Shown here: positions 917 to 26,720 of the stretch, piece after piece
Layout: every line of letters starts with the position of its first letter
How positions within the stretch are numbered: position 1 is the first letter of the stretch
NCBI GenBank assembly: GCA_028289125.1
Contig: JAQGGZ010000002.1
Location: 1 to 42,585, forward strand
DNA from: Candidatus Saccharimonadota bacterium
GTDB lineage: Bacteria > Patescibacteriota > Saccharimonadia > Saccharimonadales > UBA4665
Direction: 5' to 3'
Length of the DNA: 42,585 nt
Notes under the pieces: generated by a model
The model's database searches: none
Told to the model about the DNA's origin: nothing
Seen by the model: the letters and a program-made list of their open reading frames with translations, nothing else
Translations under genes and position numbers: made by a program

Positions 917-2353
917 TTACTTCGCGCCTTCGCTGCCGAGGACGCTTCGGACAGTTTTCAAAAGTATCATGACATCCATCCAGAATGACCAGTTCTGTAC
1001 GTAGTAAACGTCCAGTTTGCGACGTTCGTCAAAGCTGATGTTACGCCGGCCGGAAACTTGAGCCAGCCCGGTGATGCCTGATTTTACCGCCAGGATAGCG
1101 TGACGTTTCTCGTACACGGCTAATTCCTGTGGAATCAGGGCCCGCGGCCCTACCAGGCTGAGCTCACCCCGCCAGACATTGAATAACTGTGGTAGTTCAT
1201 CGAGGCTGCTGCGACGCAAGAATCGGCCTAGGGCGGTAACGCGCGGATCCTTGGCAAGGTAATCGCCGTTCTTCCGGTATTCGATCGCTAGTTCAGGCTT
1301 GCCCATAAGTCTGAAAGCTTCTTCGGGTGTCGTTCCGTCGTAACGCTTGTACTGGCTGCGGAACTTGAACACTTGGAATTCATTGTTGTAACGGGTCAAT
1401 CTGGTCTGGCGGAAGAATACCGAACCGCTGCCGCTGAGCATTTCTAATACGGCGACCAGCAACATAATGGGCGATGCCAATACGATAAGTACACTGCTGA
1501 CACCGAAGTCAAATATCCGTTTGACCACTCGGCCCCAGCCAAGCAGGGCGGTCTGGTGGACGGCGATCATCGGAATCGAAGAGCGGAACAGCTCGACATC
1601 CAGGTTTCCGACGAACAGTTCGGTGTTGCCCGGCACGAACCTGTAGCCGATATGATTGGTTTGGGCGAAATTGAGGATGTCCAGGTTCTTCTGGTCGTCA
1701 GCGTACAGTTCGGTCTGGACGATCAGGTGTAACTGGCTCCGATGGCGGTCGTCAAAATCTTTGAAGCTATGATAAAGTTTGACGTTGCCGTGCTTGCCGA
1801 GGCCGGTTTTTCCGCCGACCACACCGACGACCTTGTAACCCGAACGTTTGCTGTCGATAAGCCAGTCGACCAGCTCGGCGGTCATCTTATTATTGCCGAC
1901 CAGCAGTATATGTGTCAGTCCACGATTGAAGCCGAACAACAATCCTCTGATGAATCGGGCGATATTACGGAATATGACCAAGAAAACAAAGGCTAACCCT
2001 AACCCGTAAAGCGGCACTGCATGCGCCGGAAAGATCGGCCGGACCGAAAAGAAGTCCCAGAGGATGGCGAACATCATACCGATGAACGAACCGATCGCCA
2101 GGCGCCCAAGTTCGCGGAAGCGTTTTTCGTAGATGCTGCTGTTATATAAGCCGAGTAGTGCGAATACCAGAATCCAGAATGGCAGCAGCAACAAGAAGAG
2201 CTTCAAATAGGTGACGGCCGGTATGAAATAAGGGGCGGGGCGGTCGTCGAGACTGATACGTAATACGAAGGCACCGACGAAGGCGGCCACCAAAGCCAGG
2301 AAATCACCGATGATGAGACAGATGTTGTAGAGAATCGAGGCGTTATTTTTCAT
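917..2353 (-). CDS. Polyprenyl-phosphate sugar-1-phosphate transferase (exopolysaccharide initiating enzyme)
   Basis: The protein has 478 aa. The N-terminal third holds about four hydrophobic segments (residues ~10-120), followed by a Rossmann-like CoA-binding-type domain (~140-260). The C-terminal third is a bacterial sugar-transferase domain: KRIFDFGVSSVLIVLASPIM re-entrant helix, FKFRS, SSLDELPQLFNVWRGELSLVGPR and GITGLAQVSGR. This is the WbaP/WcaJ architecture and usual length. Members move a hexose-1-phosphate from a nucleotide sugar to undecaprenyl phosphate and so start a glycan repeat unit. It is the first gene of a leftward pair with the glycosyltransferase. The ATG at 2353 has a TATAAC -10 box just 6 nt upstream and no Shine-Dalgarno. 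The sugar it transfers cannot be read from sequence. Confidence 0.93.
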   Translation of the reverse strand: MKNNASILYNICLIIGDFLALVAAFVGAFVLRISLDDRPAPYFIPAVTYLKLFLLLLPFWILVFALLGLYNSSIYEKRFRELGRLAIGSFIGMMFAILWDFFSVRPIFPAHAVPLYGLGLAFVFLVIFRNIARFIRGLLFGFNRGLTHILLVGNNKMTAELVDWLIDSKRSGYKVVGVVGGKTGLGKHGNVKLYHSFKDFDDRHRSQLHLIVQTELYADDQKNLDILNFAQTNHIGYRFVPGNTELFVGNLDVELFRSSIPMIAVHQTALLGWGRVVKRIFDFGVSSVLIVLASPIMLLVAVLEMLSGSGSVFFRQTRLTRYNNEFQVFKFRSQYKRYDGTTPEEAFRLMGKPELAIEYRKNGDYLAKDPRVTALGRFLRRSSLDELPQLFNVWRGELSLVGPRALIPQELAVYEKRHAILAVKSGITGLAQVSGRRNISFDERRKLDVYYVQNWSFWMDVMILLKTVRSVLGSEGAK

Positions 2354-2359
2354 AGCTTC

Positions 2360-2373
2360 GTTATACTTATAGT
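2360..2373. promoter_or_regulatory. Overlapping divergent -10 boxes
   Basis: On the minus strand TATAAC (2360-2365) ends 6 nt before the ATG at 2353. On the plus strand TATAGT (2368-2373) ends 7 nt before the ATG at 2381. Both transcripts would start at or within 1-2 nt of the start codon, so both polysaccharide genes are probably leaderless. No convincing -35 boxes were seen. Confidence 0.6.
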
Positions 2374-2380
2374 AACACCG

Positions 2381-3718
2381 ATGAAAACTTCCCCCTCCAC
2401 ATTTTTACGCGCAGCACCGAACCTGCTTCTGGGGGCCATGTTCGTATTCGTGCCTTTTTACGCATTGATTACTGTCTGGCTTGGCACGACACTCGGAGGC
2501 TATTCGATATGGCGGGTTATTCCGGAAATAACGTTACTCGCGTTAGGTGTCGTAGCGGCCATAACCATGATGCAGGAAAAGAATCGCCCCGGCACTTTGT
2601 TTCGTGATCGCTTGCTGCAGGTATGCCTTGCGTACATCGGCATCCTTGTCGTGTATGGAATGGTATCGTACTTCCGCGGCGATGTCGGCGCTCGGGCTAT
2701 TCTGCAGGGTATGGTCATGGACCTGCGGCTACCGGTTGCATTCCTGGCTGCTTACCTCGTAGCGCCCCGTATAAATGGGGTAGAGGGCAAGCTCTGGCGA
2801 TGGATCTTGTGGCCAGCCGTCGGCGTAGTCGTTTTCGGGTTGTTGCAAACGTTCGTGCTTCCCCCTGATACCCTGCGCCATGTCGGGTATGGCCCGACGA
2901 CGGTTCCAGCGGTTACCTTGGTCGATCAGAAGGCGGATTTTCCCCGCGTACAATCAACTTTGAGGGGTCCGAATCCGCTCGGCGCCTACCTGATTATTAT
3001 CCTGTCTGCGCTGACGGTGGCGCTAGTCAAAAGCCGTAAACGCTGGCAGGCCACAGTGTTCGGCCTTGCGGCCGCAGTAGTGCTTATATACACCTATTCT
3101 CGTAGCGCCTACATCGGTGCTTTCATCGGCGTAGCCGGAATCTGCTGGCTGTTAGCGGGCAGGTATCGTCGTTGGCTTCTCGTGGCATCAGGCTTGCTTG
3201 TGATCATCTTCATTACAAGTCTGGTATTGTTACGAAACAATGACCAGTTTCAGAATGTCTTCTTTCACACTGATGAGACATCACGCTCAAGCCGAAGCTC
3301 CAATCAAGACAGGGCAAGTGCTTTGCACGACGGGTTCATCGAACTCGCCCACGATCCGGTCGGACGGGGTGTCGGAACTGCCGGACCGTCATCGGTCTAT
3401 AGTGGTGAAGGTACCCGAATTACCGAGAATTATTACTTGCAGATAGGGCAGGAAACCGGCTGGCTTGGGCTGGCACTCTTCTTGGGCTTCACGGGTCTTA
3501 TCGCGTACCGCTTGTGGTCGTACCGGCGCAATCACTGGGCAATCGTATTGTTGGCAAGCGGCGTCGGTCTGGTAGTCGTGAACTGTCTGTCACACGCCTG
3601 GACTGATCCGACCCTGGCGTATGTCTGGTGGCTGGCGGCCGGCCTGACGATCGGGTCTGGTATACTGTCCTCAGAAAGCCCAAACAAACATGCTAAAAAA
3701 ACTACTCAAAGGCTTTGA
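2381..3718 (+). CDS. O-antigen ligase / Wzy polymerase-like membrane protein
   Basis: The protein has 445 aa and roughly eleven hydrophobic segments. A large loop contains LRGPNPLGAYL and, further on, the extracytoplasmic stretch with GRGVGTAG and YYLQIGQETGWLGLALF. This matches the Wzy_C/O-antigen-ligase family (PF04932), in which an Arg-rich periplasmic loop takes part in transfer of lipid-linked glycan. It acts in the membrane, either polymerising repeat units or ligating a glycan to its acceptor; sequence alone does not separate the two. It is divergent from the sugar transferase, shares its promoter region, and overlaps the downstream GtrA gene by 29 nt. The C-terminal tail is short and basic (ending KHAKKTTQRL). 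Confidence 0.85.
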   Translation: MKTSPSTFLRAAPNLLLGAMFVFVPFYALITVWLGTTLGGYSIWRVIPEITLLALGVVAAITMMQEKNRPGTLFRDRLLQVCLAYIGILVVYGMVSYFRGDVGARAILQGMVMDLRLPVAFLAAYLVAPRINGVEGKLWRWILWPAVGVVVFGLLQTFVLPPDTLRHVGYGPTTVPAVTLVDQKADFPRVQSTLRGPNPLGAYLIIILSALTVALVKSRKRWQATVFGLAAAVVLIYTYSRSAYIGAFIGVAGICWLLAGRYRRWLLVASGLLVIIFITSLVLLRNNDQFQNVFFHTDETSRSSRSSNQDRASALHDGFIELAHDPVGRGVGTAGPSSVYSGEGTRITENYYLQIGQETGWLGLALFLGFTGLIAYRLWSYRRNHWAIVLLASGVGLVVVNCLSHAWTDPTLAYVWWLAAGLTIGSGILSSESPNKHAKKTTQRL

Positions 3719-4160
3719 GCCTAAACGTTTCTTAGAGTACATGGTCAGCGGCGGTGCCTATTTCTGGTTCGGCTACTTCGTGTTCTTCGTCTGCGACCAA
3801 TGGCTTCACTTGAACCTGTGGTGGGCCAAACTGCTGGCCAATGTCAGCGGCTGGACCATCAATTACCTCCTGCAACGCTACTGGGTCTTTGCCGATGGCC
3901 GCAAAGCCAGCGAACAAGCAATCAGTGGCCGCTATGCGGTCATCACGCTGGTCGACTTTTTGCTCGATTATCTGATAGTGGCCGGCCTGCAGATGCTTGG
4001 CCTGACGCCGTATATCGGCCAGTTCGTATCATCGGCCTTCTTCACGGTGTGGAATTACGCGTGGTACAAATGGTGGGTCTTCCCGGCCAAGTACGTCCAC
4101 CGGGCCCGGAAGAGTACCAAGAAGCGTAAGCATCCAGCACAACGGAAACGGCGTAAATGA
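3690..4160 (+). CDS. GtrA-like membrane protein
   Basis: The protein has 156 aa and four predicted membrane helices: SGGAYFWFGYFVFFVCDQWL, a second after NLWWAKLLANVSGW, a third at YAVITLVDFLLDYLIVAGL, and a fourth near SSAFFTVWNYAWYKWWVF. The N-rich NYLLQRYWVF and NYAWYKWWVF signatures are typical of the GtrA family (PF04138), small proteins linked to moving polyprenyl-linked sugars across the membrane or to cell-wall decoration. The tail is very basic (KSTKKRKHPAQRKRRK). It starts inside the 3' end of the ligase-like gene and ends in an ATGA overlap with the LexA-like gene, so the three genes look like one operon. Confidence 0.85.
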   Translation: MLKKLLKGFEPKRFLEYMVSGGAYFWFGYFVFFVCDQWLHLNLWWAKLLANVSGWTINYLLQRYWVFADGRKASEQAISGRYAVITLVDFLLDYLIVAGLQMLGLTPYIGQFVSSAFFTVWNYAWYKWWVFPAKYVHRARKSTKKRKHPAQRKRRK

Positions 4161-4564
4161 CACAGCTGAAGACGGTCAGACCGACCAAGAAGCAACAGGA
4201 ACTGCTCCAGTTCATCGACGCGTTCATCGGGCAGCATGGCTACAGCCCGAGCTATCGTGAAATCATGAACGGTCTCGATTACACCTCGGTCGCGACCGTG
4301 GCGTTGCATGTCGGCAACCTGATCCGCCGCGGGCACCTTATCAAGCGGGATCGCTCGGCCCGGTCTTTGGAACTGGCTACGAAGGTCGACGAAATCACCG
4401 ACACTGCCGCTCCAGAGCAGTGGCTACTCGACCATATAGAGGCCCGCTTCGCTGCCGAAGAACCTGATATTGAAGCCCTGGAAACACTGGTTAAGGCGTT
4501 GCTGATACTCGAACTCCCGGCCGCCGAAGCATTCCAAGAGCGGCTTGAAGCGCTTCGTTCATAG
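4157..4564 (+). CDS. LexA-like DNA-binding protein without peptidase domain
   Basis: The protein has 135 aa. Residues ~1-68 match the LexA winged-helix DNA-binding domain: PTKKQQELLQFIDAFIGQHG, then YSPSYREIMNGLDYTSVATV as the recognition-helix region, then a wing ending RDRSARSLEL. True LexA is about 200 aa and has an S24 self-cleavage domain with a Ser-Lys dyad. Here that domain is absent and is replaced by about 65 residues of acidic helical sequence (EQWLLDHIEARFAAEEPDIEAL...). It therefore cannot be a self-cleaving SOS repressor. The gene begins in the ATGA stop/start overlap with gtrA. Palindromic DNA just downstream (4573-4607) is a candidate binding site. The target genes are unknown. 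Confidence 0.8.
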   Translation: MTQLKTVRPTKKQQELLQFIDAFIGQHGYSPSYREIMNGLDYTSVATVALHVGNLIRRGHLIKRDRSARSLELATKVDEITDTAAPEQWLLDHIEARFAAEEPDIEALETLVKALLILELPAAEAFQERLEALRS

Positions 4565-4572
4565 CAAAAACC

Positions 4573-4607
4573 ACTACATTTAGCGTAGGCGTTATGTAGT
4601 ACACTAC
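4573..4607. promoter_or_regulatory. Inverted repeats upstream of the riboswitch (operator candidate)
   Basis: ACTACAT (4573-4579) is repeated in inverted form as ATGTAGT (4594-4600) with a 14-nt spacer. The second arm also forms a tighter palindrome GTAGT-AC-ACTAC (4596-4607). There is no T-run, so a terminator is unlikely. The site lies between the LexA-like gene and the cobalamin-riboswitch-like leader, where an operator overlapping the promoter of the riboswitch transcript would be expected. Assignment to the LexA-like protein is inference. Confidence 0.4.
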
Positions 4608-4619
4608 TAGGTATTAACA

Positions 4620-4702
4620 ATCGAACGCTGGAAACCGGTTAGAATCCGGTACTGTGCCGCAACGGTGACTGGCCCTCGAGCCATAAGTCCGATACAGCTC
4701 CT
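4620..4702 (+). ncRNA. Cobalamin (B12) riboswitch aptamer
   Basis: The core GAATCCGGTACTGTGCCGCA followed by ACGGTGA closely follows the cobalamin riboswitch core (GGAA..CCGGT.aGAATCCGG..CTG..CCGCAACGGTGA). A B12-box-like AAGTCCGATACAGCT (4686-4699) follows after a short variable part. ACCGG (4634-4638) pairs with CCGGT (4646-4650), and GCTG (4627-4630) can pair with CAGC (4695-4698) of the B12 box, as in the short class-II type fold. The compact peripheral region suggests a small variant. The usual GGTG is GGTT here, and the GGG/CCC pair positions differ, so binding strength is uncertain. Confidence 0.8.
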
Positions 4703-4711
4703 AAAGTCTTC

Positions 4712-4766
4712 CGAGCAGAAGCGCGACCAATGTGGTCGGTACTGCTCGAGACGGCGAAAGTCACGA
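4712..4766 (+). promoter_or_regulatory. Candidate riboswitch expression platform
   Basis: CGAGCAG (4712-4718) pairs with CTGCTCG (4742-4748) around an inner CGACCA/TGGTCG hairpin (4724-4738). The 3' part can instead pair within the aptamer: CTCGAGC (4675-4681) is complementary to GCTCGAG (4744-4750). The two helices exclude each other, as expected for a ligand-controlled switch. There is no U-run, so control is more likely at translation of the GTG at 4767. This is inference from complementarity only. Confidence 0.5.
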
Positions 4767-6164
4767 GTGAAAGAGACCGAACCAACCCTACCAGCCGAAC
4801 AAGCTTACGATGCCTACGCACCCTTTGACCGGGAAGCGATCGAGTTTGAAGCTATGGCCCTGATTGAGAATCGTCAGCATGCCCCTGAGGTTCCGTTGGC
4901 GCCCCAGGAACGTTTTGATAACGCCCGTACCGCATTATGGGAAGCGTTGACCACCTCCGGCCATTTATCGCGCGTGGAGATTGACGGGGACTCGATCGAA
5001 GATATCAACCGACAGGTGCTGGCCCGCCTGGTGAACGGCTTCCACGCCGAGCTTCCGTCGCATGAATATAATCGCCGGTACGCCGAATTGTGTAACGAAC
5101 TAGTTATCCAAAAAACCCATCTGGCGATCGCTGCCGGTACGATGGATCCCGAAGTCGCCGTCTTGGAGCTGTCGGATTTTCCGACGGTACTACCTGATTC
5201 CGTGGCCAGCCGTTTAGGGTATCGGGCAAAGAACCTGAAAGGCATGGTCCGTTCTACTCATTTCGAACGCACTTCGGACGGGCGCTATCACCGCGTCATT
5301 GAACAGATCAGCCGCAGTAATGCTGACGGACATTCAAGCCGCGCTTTCCTTGCGGCTTCCGGACAACATATGCCACCACCTGAAAGCGATGACCTCCGGG
5401 TCCTGAGCACGCCGCTCCACTACTCGAAACGGGATTACCGTGACGCCGTGGTTGATATCCAACGACGCCTGGACGCCTATTCAGGGCCAGGTGTACGCTT
5501 CGGTGAGCCTACGTACAACCCGCTCCATGTTGAATATGAAGCTCTGCGGGAAGAATCTGAAGCTCGGGAAACGCAGGTTGCGTACTTTGCAGAAAAACTG
5601 GCAGCCTACGAGAAAAAACTTGACGACAAGTTAGCGACGGGAGATATCTCCGAGGACACCCGTCTGTATCTCTACGGCCAAGAAGTCAAGAAAATCCTAG
5701 CCGCCATCTGTACGCTGGCACCGGAATACAGCAGCGATTGCCTGGGTACCGAAGCGACATACTATATAGAACAAGCCGCCTTATACGCTGCCGCCGGGGA
5801 CATGGAACGAGCGGCCGAACTGGCTGACGCCGCCGCTGACGCCGCCGACACGATTCTGTTCTGTGGTATGGAAATAAGTAAGGAAGAAGCCGACCGGCTG
5901 GGCCTGAATCCAGACAACACCGGCAACCTTATCGGTGAAGGCAAAGAAAAGATGTCTTGGAAAGACGGCGTCTGCCGGGTTAAGTCCTGTAGCAGTCCTC
6001 GCCCCACCAAGGTCGGGCCGTGCAGCGTCTGCCGTAACTGCCAGCATATGTTCGACAAAGGCATTGATCCTACGAAGCTTTCCTTGGCAGCGGCACTCGC
6101 CGCCACCTCGGAAAACGAAAAGAAGTCCCGACAAAAACAGAAGGACTTTGAGCTGGCAGCCTGA
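4767..6164 (+). CDS. Unknown protein with C-terminal cysteine cluster, under riboswitch
   Basis: I do not recognise the family. The open frame extends to 4665, but that part is the riboswitch, so GTG at 4767 (product 465 aa, starting KETEPTLP) is the sensible start. The protein has no signal peptide or membrane helix. The middle (~275-300) is charged and probably coiled coil (EYEALREESEARETQVAYFAEKL); residues ~335-365 are Ala-rich helix. Near the C terminus is a cysteine cluster, C-x4-C-x10-C-x2-C-x2-C (residues ~403-425, VCRVKSCSSP...GPCSVCRNC), which could bind zinc or an Fe-S cluster. A Lys/Glu-rich tail follows. The cobalamin-riboswitch-like leader links it to B12 status, but nothing in the protein resembles a known B12 transporter or B12-dependent enzyme. 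nadD follows with its own -10 box. Confidence 0.8.
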   Translation: MKETEPTLPAEQAYDAYAPFDREAIEFEAMALIENRQHAPEVPLAPQERFDNARTALWEALTTSGHLSRVEIDGDSIEDINRQVLARLVNGFHAELPSHEYNRRYAELCNELVIQKTHLAIAAGTMDPEVAVLELSDFPTVLPDSVASRLGYRAKNLKGMVRSTHFERTSDGRYHRVIEQISRSNADGHSSRAFLAASGQHMPPPESDDLRVLSTPLHYSKRDYRDAVVDIQRRLDAYSGPGVRFGEPTYNPLHVEYEALREESEARETQVAYFAEKLAAYEKKLDDKLATGDISEDTRLYLYGQEVKKILAAICTLAPEYSSDCLGTEATYYIEQAALYAAAGDMERAAELADAAADAADTILFCGMEISKEEADRLGLNPDNTGNLIGEGKEKMSWKDGVCRVKSCSSPRPTKVGPCSVCRNCQHMFDKGIDPTKLSLAAALAATSENEKKSRQKQKDFELAA

Positions 6165-6175
6165 CAAGACAGGCG

Positions 6176-6181
6176 TATAAT
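6176..6181 (+). promoter_or_regulatory. -10 box of nadD
   Basis: TATAAT ends 8 nt before the nadD ATG at 6190. The gap reads aaaaggat, so a short AAGGA Shine-Dalgarno is present but would lie at the extreme 5' end of the transcript. Confidence 0.5.
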
Positions 6182-6189
6182 AAAAGGAT

Positions 6190-6810
6190 ATGAAAAAGGC
6201 ACCGCGTATCGGCATCTATGCCGGTAGTTTCGATCCGGTTCACGCCGGGCATATCAGCTTCGCGCTCCAGGCTTTGCAGCAGGCCAAGCTCGACGAAGTC
6301 ATTTTCTTGCCGGAGCGCAAACCGTTTTTTAAGCCGGGTGCGGAACATTTCGGTCACCGTGTCGCCATGCTTAAGACGGCGCTCAAGCCGCACCCCTCCT
6401 TGTCGGTGGCGGAAACCGTCGACCGGCAATTCACGGTACGCCGTACGCTCCGTCAGCTGAGAGCATTGCTACCTCCGGATGCTCAGTTAGTATTTCTATT
6501 CGGCGCTGACACGGTCGCATTATTGCCAACCTGGCCGCACGCCGAAGAATTGCTCCGGACGTGTGAAATTGTCGTCGCCGTCAAGCAAGGACAGAAACTG
6601 AAAACAGTCCAGGGAGTCATCAAAGGGTGGCCGACCCAGCCGTTGGCCACCACTATCATACCGGCGCATGCTCCGCATGTGTCGAGCACGGCCATCAGGG
6701 CTGCTTTGCGCAAGAACATACCGACCGGCGGATTGCTCGCCAGCGTGCGCCGGTATGCCCATCGCCAGTGGCTCTATGTCTCACTCGATAAGTTGAAGAA
6801 TCAAGCTTGA
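6190..6810 (+). CDS. nadD: Nicotinate-nucleotide adenylyltransferase
   Basis: The 206-aa length is usual for NadD. The nucleotidyltransferase signature GSFDPVHAGH is at residues ~12-21. NadD-type motifs follow: FLFGADTVALLPTWPHAEELL and, near the C terminus, HVSSTAIRAAL, the (S/T)SSTxIR element that contacts ATP phosphates. The enzyme adenylates nicotinate mononucleotide to deamido-NAD in the cytoplasm. The related CoaD is shorter and lacks the GADTVALLPTW motif. It stands as a single gene with its own -10 box, downstream of the Cys-cluster gene. No other NAD-synthesis gene is visible, so the organism may salvage the mononucleotide. Confidence 0.88.
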   Translation: MKKAPRIGIYAGSFDPVHAGHISFALQALQQAKLDEVIFLPERKPFFKPGAEHFGHRVAMLKTALKPHPSLSVAETVDRQFTVRRTLRQLRALLPPDAQLVFLFGADTVALLPTWPHAEELLRTCEIVVAVKQGQKLKTVQGVIKGWPTQPLATTIIPAHAPHVSSTAIRAALRKNIPTGGLLASVRRYAHRQWLYVSLDKLKNQA

Positions 6811-6835
6811 CAAGCATAAGCGTACTCTTGTAAGA

Positions 6836-7027
6836 TTAGTCTACTTTAGAAGCCTTCATGCGAGAGACGGCAGAAAAAAGACAAAAACATAACAAAAAAA
6901 GAACGCATCCATGATAAATGGTGCGACGCTTGGGGGTCACGATAATGCCAATCACGGTCATTACATACCAGGCCAACCCGACGAAGATACCTGTAAAGGT
7001 TCGCCGGCCAACCTGGCAGGAATTCAT
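6836..7027 (-). CDS. Possible small two-helix membrane protein
   Basis: This 63-aa frame lies in the space between convergent nadD and the DsbA-like gene. It encodes two hydrophobic stretches (FTGIFVGLAWYVMTVIGIIV and YHGCVLFLLCFCLFSAV) separated by a basic turn PKRRTI, which fits a helical hairpin with positive-inside topology. There is no Shine-Dalgarno, and the strong hairpin at 7036-7073 lies directly upstream, so it would need a promoter inside or after that hairpin. It may be spurious; I see no family match. Confidence 0.3.
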   Translation of the reverse strand: MNSCQVGRRTFTGIFVGLAWYVMTVIGIIVTPKRRTIYHGCVLFLLCFCLFSAVSRMKASKVD

Positions 7028-7035
7028 CCACTACT

Positions 7036-7073
7036 AAAAAATCGCCCGTCACTATAGAACGGGCGATTTTTTT
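7036..7073. terminator. Bidirectional rho-independent terminator
   Basis: AAAAAATCGCCCGT (7036-7049) pairs perfectly with ACGGGCGATTTTTT (7059-7072) around a 9-nt loop. It is flanked by A-run and T-run, so it can stop transcription in both directions. It sits between convergent nadD and the DsbA-like gene, 13 nt after the stop of the latter. Confidence 0.9.
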
Positions 7074-7085
7074 AGGTCAGGTGTT

Positions 7086-7745
7086 TTAGATGTCAGCGTT
7101 CTGCTTGCTCTTGATTGCGGCGTCAATCAGTTTAGACCAGTCCTCAACGTTCTGCGGCGCATTGGCGACCTGTTTGTCGTTCAGGAAGAAGGTAGGTGTG
7201 CCTTGGATGCCCAGTTTTTGACCGGCAGCCAGGTCGGCCCGGACGGTGTCATTCACTTTGTCACTACTGTAATCACTGTCGAACTTCGTCACGTTCAAAC
7301 CGAGGGCCTTTGCATACTGCTCAAAGTAAGGTTTGGGATTTTGGCTGTTACTCCAGGTCGTCCAGTTAGCTTCGGTGTAAAGAGCCTGATGCATTTCCCA
7401 GAATTTGCCTTGCAATGCTGCGGCTTCAGCGGCACGGGCGCCGGCAAAGGCGTTCTGGTGAATGGTGGTGAGCGGGAAGTTGCGGAACTGGAAGGTGATC
7501 TGCCCCTGGTACTTTTCGTAGACCTGTTCGATGATGGGGTAATAGGCTTCACAGGCGGGGCACTGGAAATCGCCGTACTCGACGAGGACGACACCGGTGC
7601 TGCCTTGGCCCCGGACGTGGTTCGTAGCGCTTACCGACGAATTTGAGCCGCCGTTTTCTGATGATTTCTGCTTGTTAGTCGTGAAGATGATTCCCGCGAC
7701 GACCAGGATGATGACGGCAATGACTGCCCAAAACTGTTTACTCAT
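7086..7745 (-). CDS. DsbA-like thiol oxidoreductase, membrane anchored
   Basis: The protein has 219 aa from the ATG at 7745 (a TTG two codons further upstream is possible). Residues ~5-24 form a signal anchor (FWAVIAVIILVVAGIIF), followed by a Ser/Asn-rich linker. The thioredoxin fold then shows VEYGDFQCPACEAYYP with the CPAC redox pair, the FRNFPLTTIHQNA helix typical of the DsbA/BdbD group, and GTPTFFLN containing the cis-proline next to the active site. It would introduce or shuffle disulfides in exported proteins outside the membrane. The ATG has TATACT 7 nt upstream and no Shine-Dalgarno. It is monocistronic and ends at the 7036-7073 terminator. Confidence 0.92.
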   Translation of the reverse strand: MSKQFWAVIAVIILVVAGIIFTTNKQKSSENGGSNSSVSATNHVRGQGSTGVVLVEYGDFQCPACEAYYPIIEQVYEKYQGQITFQFRNFPLTTIHQNAFAGARAAEAAALQGKFWEMHQALYTEANWTTWSNSQNPKPYFEQYAKALGLNVTKFDSDYSSDKVNDTVRADLAAGQKLGIQGTPTFFLNDKQVANAPQNVEDWSKLIDAAIKSKQNADI

Positions 7746-25087: not shown

Positions 25088-25663
25088 GTGGCTTACGAAA
25101 AAATTGGTATAGCCGGCACCTCTGCCAGTGGCAAGGACACAGCCGCAGATCATTTGGCAGAACTAGGTTATCTGCATGTCTCTACCGCCGAAATAATCAG
25201 GCAGGAAGCGCAGCGGTTGTATGGCAATGAAGATCAATACGTTTTGCGTAAGGTCGGTCATGAGCTTCGACAACGACAGGGGCCGGCAGCCACATGCCTG
25301 CTCGGTCTCAGCCGGTACATGGAACAGCGTCATCTTTACCGGGGTGTAGTTATCAGCGGCTTCAGAGCCGTCGCGCCGGCACAGGCCATACGAGACGTAG
25401 GGGGCGTATTACTGGCCATCGATGCTCCGCCAGAGATACGCTACCAGCGCCAAGTCGGTAGGGCCCGGCCCGGAGAGTCGAGGTCATATGAAGAGTTCCT
25501 GGCTTTCGAAGAAGAAGAACTAGCTGGCACTTTGTCAACCGGGCAAGATATCCGGGGCGTACAACGCATAAGTGACGTACAGATATATAACGACGGCGAT
25601 CTGCCAACTTTTTTACGCCAAGTGGAGACCGCTGTCGGCCTTGATACTTCAACGGCAGCTTAA
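25088..25663 (+). CDS. Deoxynucleotide-monophosphate-kinase-like P-loop protein
   Basis: GTG at 25088 is chosen because AGGAG (25078-25082) lies 5 nt upstream; the frame is open to 24971, but that would cross the promoter. The product has 191 aa. The P-loop is IAGTSASGKDTAADHL with Asp where Ser/Thr is usual after Lys; SGKDT is typical of the phage-type dNMP kinase group. VVISGFRAVAPAQAI and LLAIDAPPEIRYQRQVGRARPGE look like the Walker B side and lid. It probably phosphorylates a (d)NMP; CoaE-like or other small-molecule kinase activity is possible. It converges on the Dcd pair with a 4-nt overlap. Confidence 0.75.
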   Translation: MAYEKIGIAGTSASGKDTAADHLAELGYLHVSTAEIIRQEAQRLYGNEDQYVLRKVGHELRQRQGPAATCLLGLSRYMEQRHLYRGVVISGFRAVAPAQAIRDVGGVLLAIDAPPEIRYQRQVGRARPGESRSYEEFLAFEEEELAGTLSTGQDIRGVQRISDVQIYNDGDLPTFLRQVETAVGLDTSTAA

Positions 25664-26181
25664 TCTTTGAAGTCTTTGTAAATCTGAGAGGGCATCGGAC
25701 CACGGCTGCCCTGATACTTGCCTTTGTACAACTCGATGTCACCCTGGGCTTCCCAGAACGTTACCTGACCAATGAGCATGCCCGGGTATACACGCACGGG
25801 TTGCACGACATGCATCTGCAGCGTCCACTGGTTTATGGAGCCAATATCGATCAGGTCGGCCGTAATGTTGATGAAGATACCGATGCGCCCGATTGATGAC
25901 CGGCCTCGCATAATTGGCACGTAATGTTCACTCCCCATGACCTCCATGGTATGACCGAGGTAAAGCGTGGTAGGTTGCAGCACCATCCCCTCGGGCGGAA
26001 TCTTCGTGGTCGTGCTGGGATTCATCACTTTGACGTCCAAAACGTTATCGTCATACGTCAGGATCGTATCACCGAGCCTGAAGTTGTAGGAGTTTGGGTT
26101 GACCTGGTCAAGCGTGAACGGGTCGATGTGAATCCGGCCGGAAGCCACTTCCTGAGTAATTTTATCGCCCGTCAATATCAT
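25660..26181 (-). CDS. dCTP deaminase-family protein with Gln at the catalytic Glu position
   Basis: The protein has 173 aa. It aligns without gaps with the neighbouring paralogue for about 140 residues. It keeps the MRGRSSIGRIGIF block (Ser/Arg contact the triphosphate) and VYPGMLIGQVTFW. In dCTP deaminase the catalytic Glu lies in a ..LE(F/L).. strand after that block; here the aligned residues are WTLQMHV, so Q122 replaces Glu. Deamination by the standard mechanism is unlikely; nucleotide binding or a dUTPase-like role remains possible. The gene starts in the ATGA stop/start overlap with the paralogue, so equal expression and a mixed trimer are plausible. Confidence 0.8.
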   Translation of the reverse strand: MILTGDKITQEVASGRIHIDPFTLDQVNPNSYNFRLGDTILTYDDNVLDVKVMNPSTTTKIPPEGMVLQPTTLYLGHTMEVMGSEHYVPIMRGRSSIGRIGIFINITADLIDIGSINQWTLQMHVVQPVRVYPGMLIGQVTFWEAQGDIELYKGKYQGSRGPMPSQIYKDFKD

Positions 26182-26720
26182 ATGGTTGGCTCACTTTCTT
26201 CCAATAGCTCTTCGTACAACTTGCTGTGATGAGGCTTATCGTGGGCATGGTACTTGCCAGCATAAAGCATTCTTTTGCTACCGGTCGTCGACCAGAAACT
26301 GACCTGTCCGATTTTCATCTTAGGATAGACACGGAGCGGTTGAACGACTTTTAGCTCCAGGGTCCAGTGATGGATAGCTCCCAAGTGTCCGAGGTCTGCG
26401 GTAATCTGTAGGAACAACCCGAGGCGGCCAACCGACGAACGCCCGATCAAGCTGGTAACAAACTGGTTGCTGCCGATTTTTTCCAAAGTCGAGGCTAGGT
26501 ATAGCGTACCCGGGGTCAAGAGGTAGCCCTCGTCAGTGAGGGTGATTGATTTGTAGTTTGGCACCGCCTTTGGATCGATGACATCGTCGGTTATTTCCAG
26601 CAAGTGCGAGCCGAGGCGATAATTGTAGCTGTTGGGGTTGACCAGTTCTTCGGAAAAGGGCGCGATGGTAATCGCACCCGATCGAACCTGCTTAGTAATT
26701 TCAGAACCGGTCAGAATCAT
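26178..26720 (-). CDS. dCTP deaminase-family protein (catalytic Glu retained)
   Basis: The protein has 180 aa, close to the usual Dcd length of ~190. LVNPNSYNYRLGSHLL (~27-42) resembles the N-terminal Dcd pattern, LIGRSSVGRLGLF (~91-103) is the nucleotide-binding block, and WTLELKVVQPLRVYP carries E122 where the catalytic Glu should be. Dcd enzymes are trimers that convert dCTP to dUTP (or to dUMP in bifunctional forms). The sequence around the active site is divergent (ADLGHLGAIHHWT), so another pyrimidine nucleotide is possible. TAGCAT lies 6 nt before the ATG. It is first of the tandem pair. Confidence 0.8.
   Translation of the reverse strand: MILTGSEITKQVRSGAITIAPFSEELVNPNSYNYRLGSHLLEITDDVIDPKAVPNYKSITLTDEGYLLTPGTLYLASTLEKIGSNQFVTSLIGRSSVGRLGLFLQITADLGHLGAIHHWTLELKVVQPLRVYPKMKIGQVSFWSTTGSKRMLYAGKYHAHDKPHHSKLYEELLEESEPTI

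Follow-up and report, generated by a model that had tools for sequence, protein, structure and literature searches.

This locus raises the question of which signal is sensed by a short leader in front of an unrecognised cysteine-cluster protein, and what that protein does. It lies in a stretch of 42,585 nucleotides (the window) from a member of the Saccharibacteria, in which, to our knowledge, gene regulation is almost unknown. Cobalamin riboswitches usually precede genes for B12 uptake, B12 synthesis or B12-independent isozymes. A sequence-only reading of the window had proposed such a riboswitch upstream of a 465-aa frame, here called CysP, and had suggested a new B12-linked function for the protein. 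Taken as a whole, the results are probably best explained by a translational OFF cobalamin riboswitch which controls CysP, a presumed protein of B12 acquisition or economy.

Aptamer and expression platform

The leader and the regulated gene comprise the following features (basis of the assignment in brackets).

4579..4716, plus strand: cobalamin riboswitch aptamer (RF00174 model 1-189; core 4624-4700)
4655..4659, plus strand: L5 loop UGCCG (sequence; unchanged in aligned leaders)
4708..4721, plus strand: P13 hairpin CUUC-CGAGCA-GAAG (loop kept in relatives, compensated stem)
4712..4748, plus strand: alternative helix 4712-4718/4742-4748 (CGAGCAG/CUGCUCG), proposed anti-sequestor (exact complement)
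4745..4767, plus strand: proposed start-codon hairpin CUCGaGAC-ggcgaaa-GUCaCGAG (sequence, folding, relatives)
4767..6164, plus strand: CysP, the regulated gene, 465 aa, GTG start (no Pfam or NCBIfam match; homologues in named loci)

The aptamer core motifs and the open reading frame of the sequence-only reading were present at the positions given: the core GGAA..AAUCCGG..CUGUGCCGCAACGGUGA and the B12-box-like AAGUCCGAUACAGC span 4624-4700, just 5' of the frame that starts at GTG 4767. A permissive scan with RF00174 returned a significant match to 4579-4716 over the full model length (28.5 bits; E = 1.5e-5 for 401 bases and 7.7e-6 genome-wide), the sole RF00174 match across the whole 0.87-Mb genome. 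Rfam in its default mode, at gathering scores, returned only tRNAs for the window, because this copy misses the curated RF00174 gathering score of 31.5 bits. When AdoCbl-II (RF01689) and the other members of the same clan (CL00101) were compared on the window, RF00174 scored best; one relative, L010, matched AdoCbl-II at 23 bits, below the gathering score of 36.5 bits.

Covariation in relatives was examined on 34 aligned cores at 18 pairs of the P3-P6 helices and the variable arm. Paired bases occupied 95.4% of the cells, compared to 73.4% after shuffling, and cells with double changes numbered 144 versus 47 in the shuffles. The covariation score was 0.586 versus 0.169 shuffled, and it collapsed to 0.04-0.13 in controls with slid partners. 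With the known family the leader shares the core GGAA..CCGG..CUGUGCCGCAAC, the B12 box, the P3-P6 helices, L5 with a downstream P13-type hairpin, and presumed sequestration of the start site; it differs from it by a compact peripheral arm. By family, structure and conserved parts, the window leader is a genuine cobalamin riboswitch. Membership in this family points to cobalamin as the ligand, and CysP is almost certainly the gene controlled.

A leader that binds another ligand, or none, as a degenerate copy in the window genome would agree with a score under the cut-off and with a start-site hairpin unlike those of relatives. We consider this most improbable, as every core position invariant among the aligned leaders is kept, P3, P4 and P6 are fully paired and P13 is intact.

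Shortly 3' of the B12 box, a hairpin with the loop CGAGCA was found in 44 of 48 leaders, and its stem variants are compensated (CUCU/AGAG, CUCC/GGAG, CUUC/GAAG, UUAGC/GCUAA). In cobalamin riboswitches a kissing contact between L5 and L13 links the aptamer to the expression platform. The L5 sequence UGCCG and the P13 loop CGAGCA can form five pairs with one bulged A; both loops are near-invariant and covariation is uninformative for them. By analogy to the known L5-L13 contact, we propose that these loops kiss.

Most relatives carry a start hairpin whose 3' arm contains a Shine-Dalgarno sequence, for instance GAGGG. In many of them a hairpin of the form CCCUC..GAGGG-UAUUUUU-AUG masks the Shine-Dalgarno sequence, whose spacing to the start is ideal, which argues for translational control. 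Sequence and folding of the window copy suggest a hairpin at 4745-4752/4760-4767 that reaches the G of GUG 4767 and is the counterpart of the CCCUC..GAGGGUAUUUUUAUG hairpins in relatives. The standard GAGGG-U-rich-ATG start of the relatives is missing from the window copy and GTG 4767 has no good Shine-Dalgarno sequence upstream. The GTG start is plausible, since close relatives have a similar N-terminus and start at an ATG about equally far from the aptamer.

Two alternative helices had been put forward for the platform, and both pairs of 7-mers exist as written. Only the helix 4712-4718/4742-4748 proved meaningful (shuffle P ~0.03): it joins the invariant P13 loop and 3' arm to the start region, belongs to the minimum free energy structure of 4700-4790 and is the form which competes with the start hairpin. 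Comparable pairing is found in some relatives as well, L049, L054 and L056 among them. The second helix, 4675-4681/4744-4750, uses the variable aptamer arm and was dismissed as not beyond chance (P ~0.10). An anti-sequestor or antiterminator common to all leaders was likewise rejected, as complementarity to P13 occurs in some relatives only.

We therefore favour a switch that very probably acts on translation and in the OFF direction, judged from the architecture of the platform. With cobalamin bound, L5 would kiss the P13 loop and hold P13, and the second hairpin would bury the ribosome site and the start codon. When cobalamin is absent, the loop and 3' arm of P13 would pair with the 5' arm of the second hairpin, as in the alternative helix of the window, and free the start. 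CysP would then be made at B12 shortage.

Conservation of the leader and CysP in Saccharibacteria

Two conserved neighbours flank the riboswitch and its gene.

4157..4564, plus strand: LexA-N-like small protein, conserved upstream neighbour (ORF list; synteny in most loci)
6190..6810, plus strand: nadD-like gene 25 nt downstream of CysP, possibly co-transcribed (ORF list; synteny)

Of 93 genomes from the family of the window genome, 78 had an RF00174 match at E <=0.05, nearly always in one copy; 36 of the 93 exceed the RF00174 cut-off, and homologous leaders score as high as 43.8 bits. Second matches were observed in four genomes (G088:C1:108395-108469, G079:C26:13395-13465, G024:C37:99-280 and G022:C2:23090-23183).

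Gene by gene inspection of 47 element sites and the window, i.e. 48 loci, revealed a CysP homologue as the next gene after the element in 44. The remaining four (L058, L082, L086, L090) have a pair of small genes there. In L058 and L086 the CysP homologue comes after this pair, and in L082 and L090 no CysP stands directly behind it. The gene order at the locus is sugar transferase, O-antigen ligase, GtrA, LexA-like protein, leader, CysP, nadD, DsbA, CBS protein and asnS. Synteny is strong, and the leader and CysP are still paired where the surroundings differ (L043, L070, L085) or are inverted (L056).

A second sample of 80 named Saccharibacteria loci was fetched with the LexA-like neighbour as bait; it overlaps partly with the first, as some named records are genomes of the 93-genome survey. 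A CysP profile detected homologues in 68 of the 80, and all 68 carry the strict core sequence upstream. The core is close to the start in 64 of these and ~1040 nt away in four, two of which (L113 and L116) match loci with DUF6580 in between. Eleven of the twelve CysP-negative loci are without the core; the twelfth (L164), on the same contig as L082, has it in front of a DUF4430-DUF6580 pair. Among 380 sampled genomes of the phylum, CysP was confined to one order, in other families of which the leader again stands directly upstream of CysP (G233, G127, G274). The leader is kept with the protein across the order; on this point, on the significance of the RF00174 match and on covariation, the checks that could have refuted the sequence-only reading spoke for it.

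Three loci showed irregularities. In L047 (G065; 5959-7404) the CysP frame ends in unrelated sequence and the usual tail lies in another frame, probably by a frameshift; the core is found upstream of this CysP though the genome scan gave no RF00174 match. The CysP of L194 (G601; 1675-3148) appears to be divided: the riboswitch is followed by two frames, 271 and 222 aa long, that overlap, through a genuine split of the gene or a frameshift. L136 (CAJCIR010000041.1), titled 'Chlamydiae bacterium', holds a Saccharibacteria locus and is probably mislabelled.

In the open-access journal literature searched, we found no paper on cobalamin riboswitches in Saccharibacteria, nor the CysP family, its near-universality in this group or its swapped Cys-rich tail. 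The riboswitch class is already known; its target family and lineage appear undescribed. In contrast to known RF00174 elements, those of Saccharibacteria have an unrecognised protein family as main target and usually occur once per genome.

Sequence, predicted fold and tails of CysP

The protein is divided as follows.

4803..5546, plus strand: N-terminal alpha/beta domain of CysP, residues 13-260 (AlphaFold2 pLDDT mostly >90)
5862..5864, plus strand: Cys366 codon (residue invariant in all 63 homologues, where a low-confidence linker begins)
5973..6041, plus strand: C-terminal Cys cluster C403-C408-C419-C422-C425, tail type D, presumed metal site

The cysteine spacing C-x4-C-x10-C-x2-C-x2-C noted earlier was correct, and C403, C408 and C425 are, like Cys366, invariant among 63 homologues; Glu59 is the only invariant residue in the alignment of the N-domain. 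Window CysP had no family above the cut-off in Pfam or NCBIfam. Searches of Pfam, NCBIfam and PHROGs with between one and 63 CysP proteins yielded nothing above chance beyond weak zinc-ribbon matches of the tail, and with 42 and 63 homologues against family libraries the matches were scattered and marginal. Nothing significant was obtained with PDB sequence profiles.

An AlphaFold2 model built with 63 homologues (pLDDT 88.5) begins with an alpha/beta domain that extends to about residue 250, followed by a helical bundle, a weakly predicted linker from Cys366 onwards and the Cys-rich tail. The N-domain of a distant member was modelled with the same order of elements (pLDDT 88.9). Structural comparison with Foldseek and VIA-align gave best E values of 0.3 (Foldseek, full model) and 0.03 (Foldseek, N-domain) and best Z scores of 5.0 and 4.2, respectively. 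No confident match was found for the whole model and the N-domain in the PDB or for the full model among viral proteins (BFVD); as predicted cellular proteins lie outside this comparison, the models give no proof of a new fold. PAS-like neighbours of the N-domain (best Z 4.2, rmsd 2.7 over 79 residues) are not trusted.

The earlier statement that the protein has no membrane segment held for the window CysP (highest Kyte-Doolittle mean over 19 residues 1.03), and such means stayed at or below 1.5 in all 63 homologues. CysP is thus predicted to be cytosolic, and without a membrane or signal-like segment it could not itself be a transporter.

At least eight dissimilar tail types occur on one kind of N-domain. 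Mapped on the N-domain tree they require 26 changes, against a minimum of nine, numbers that are approximate as the labels are simple patterns plus an 'other' class. One strongly supported clade (L170, L096, L100, L114) contains three tail types. Along this tree the Cys-rich tail appears to be swapped among types. When the tail module was sought in other proteins by a whole-protein search over the 93 genomes, no genome had more than one match. The N-domain has a median identity of 15% across species versus 60% for the LexA-like neighbour, and the sequences characterise CysP as a fast-evolving family of one order of Saccharibacteria. In another family, the CysP proteins of L190 (G274) and L191 (G406) have lost the Cys-rich tail and bear a different, Cys-poor end; the tail seems therefore dispensable in some lineages.

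A cytosolic protein with a sensor-like alpha/beta domain and a nucleic-acid-binding zinc ribbon might be a regulator of B12 starvation, reprogramming e.g. NrdJ, attachment and growth. Like zinc-ribbon proteins of the Elf1 and eL43 kind, CysP has four to five cysteines in C-terminal CxxC-type clusters; its tail resembled Elf1 in seven members and, marginally, ribosomal eL43 and L32, and the N-domain has PAS-like sensors as its weak structural neighbours. None of these matches, however, reaches significance, the tails are swapped among dissimilar types, which would be unusual with fixed DNA sites, and no known DNA-binding domain was found in CysP. We consider a regulator unlikely.

Those Saccharibacteria that have been brought into culture live on host bacteria. 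They possess a type IV secretion system without an assigned role, and delivery of effectors has been a matter of speculation (PMC11665869). If low B12 reports poor supply by the host, CysP could be an effector directed at the host bacterium or at competitors as a means of getting B12. Very fast evolution and tail swapping would suit such a protein, whereas its usual single copy per genome and near-universality in the family are unlike typical effectors, and no signal, toxin domain or secretion motif was found in CysP. This appears a little less likely still than a regulator.

B12 economy and the probable role of CysP

The preferred reading, B12 acquisition or economy, draws on the genes found in company with the switch. 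The pair of small genes behind the element in some relatives encodes DUF4430 (PF14478) and the membrane protein DUF6580 (PF20221). DUF4430 is a domain at the C-terminus of transcobalamins (PMC4350170); it was confirmed in L058, where it stands between the switch and DUF6580. DUF6580 was clear in nine of the 93 genomes, namely those of L058, L082, L086 and L090 (G008, G001, G066 and G088) and G021, G022, G028, G029 and G030, and no copy was detected in the genome of the window. Each of the nine copies immediately follows an RF00174 match, which makes DUF6580 a candidate B12 uptake protein. The DUF4430-DUF6580 pair plausibly serves B12 capture and uptake, and control of presumed uptake genes in some relatives would be a further feature shared with known RF00174 elements. 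These operons have the same riboswitch as CysP and no sequence link to it. Only a few lineages connect CysP to the presumed uptake genes, and this counts against the preferred reading. A search for a BtuC-type importer across the 93 genomes gave weak partial FecCD matches only, none of them in the window genome.

The ribonucleotide reductase in most genomes of the order is NrdJ. By their NF005122 scores, 170 genomes of the order sample have full NrdJ, 51 have distant matches and the other 74 have none. The RF00174 element was present in 128 of the 170 full-NrdJ genomes versus 16 of the 125 others (Fisher P ~4e-28, uncorrected for descent). This co-occurrence is partly phylogenetic, as one large family is mostly without both. 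In this family, in which other reductases prevail, the full-NrdJ members G274 and G584 carry the riboswitch and a third such member, G406, carries CysP; the riboswitch is also present in G572, G601 and G610, which are without the full NrdJ type. The NrdJ-like protein of the window genome is a shorter one (590 aa); its best family was NrdJ_Z at 350 bits (cut-off 400), and class I NrdE_NrdA gave only 163 bits. Most of these Saccharibacteria would need B12 for DNA synthesis by way of an adenosylcobalamin-dependent NrdJ.

A CobA/BtuR-type adenosyltransferase was found in 86 of the 93 genomes, including that of the window, although PduO was found in none of the 93. The idea that CysP is a missing adenosyltransferase was rejected as unnecessary on this ground. 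Taken together, uptake, adenosylation and NrdJ would make up a consistent B12 economy, with CysP as the step that responds to B12. The B12-linked function anticipated by the sequence-only reading gains support from the DUF4430 and DUF6580 genes under the same switch and from the co-occurrence with NrdJ.

The metE gene and genes of class I and class III reductases behind cobalamin riboswitches encode isozymes that are repressed by B12, and by this classical logic CysP might replace a B12-dependent step; NrdJ is the reductase present in most of these genomes. Its predicted fold and size are unlike those of any reductase or methionine synthase, and Glu59 alone is invariant in the N-domain, so that an isozyme is very improbable.

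Judged from its gene company, CysP rather likely serves B12 acquisition or economy, and NrdJ would thereby keep its cofactor. It is possible, and we put it forward tentatively, that CysP represents a new class of such proteins with an undescribed fold, an invariant cysteine and a freely exchanged metal-binding tail, made only at B12 shortage and the sole B12-switched gene in most of the order. These results indicate that Saccharibacteria sense vitamin B12 by a riboswitch, mark a near-universal gene as part of their B12 economy and suggest an uptake role for DUF6580. The supply of B12 is a concrete candidate for a tie between Saccharibacteria and their hosts or neighbours, and the leader offers a ready sensor to test it.

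Elsewhere in the window, the minus strand holds what appear to be two adjacent, overlapping dCTP-deaminase-like genes at 25660-26181 and 26178-26720.
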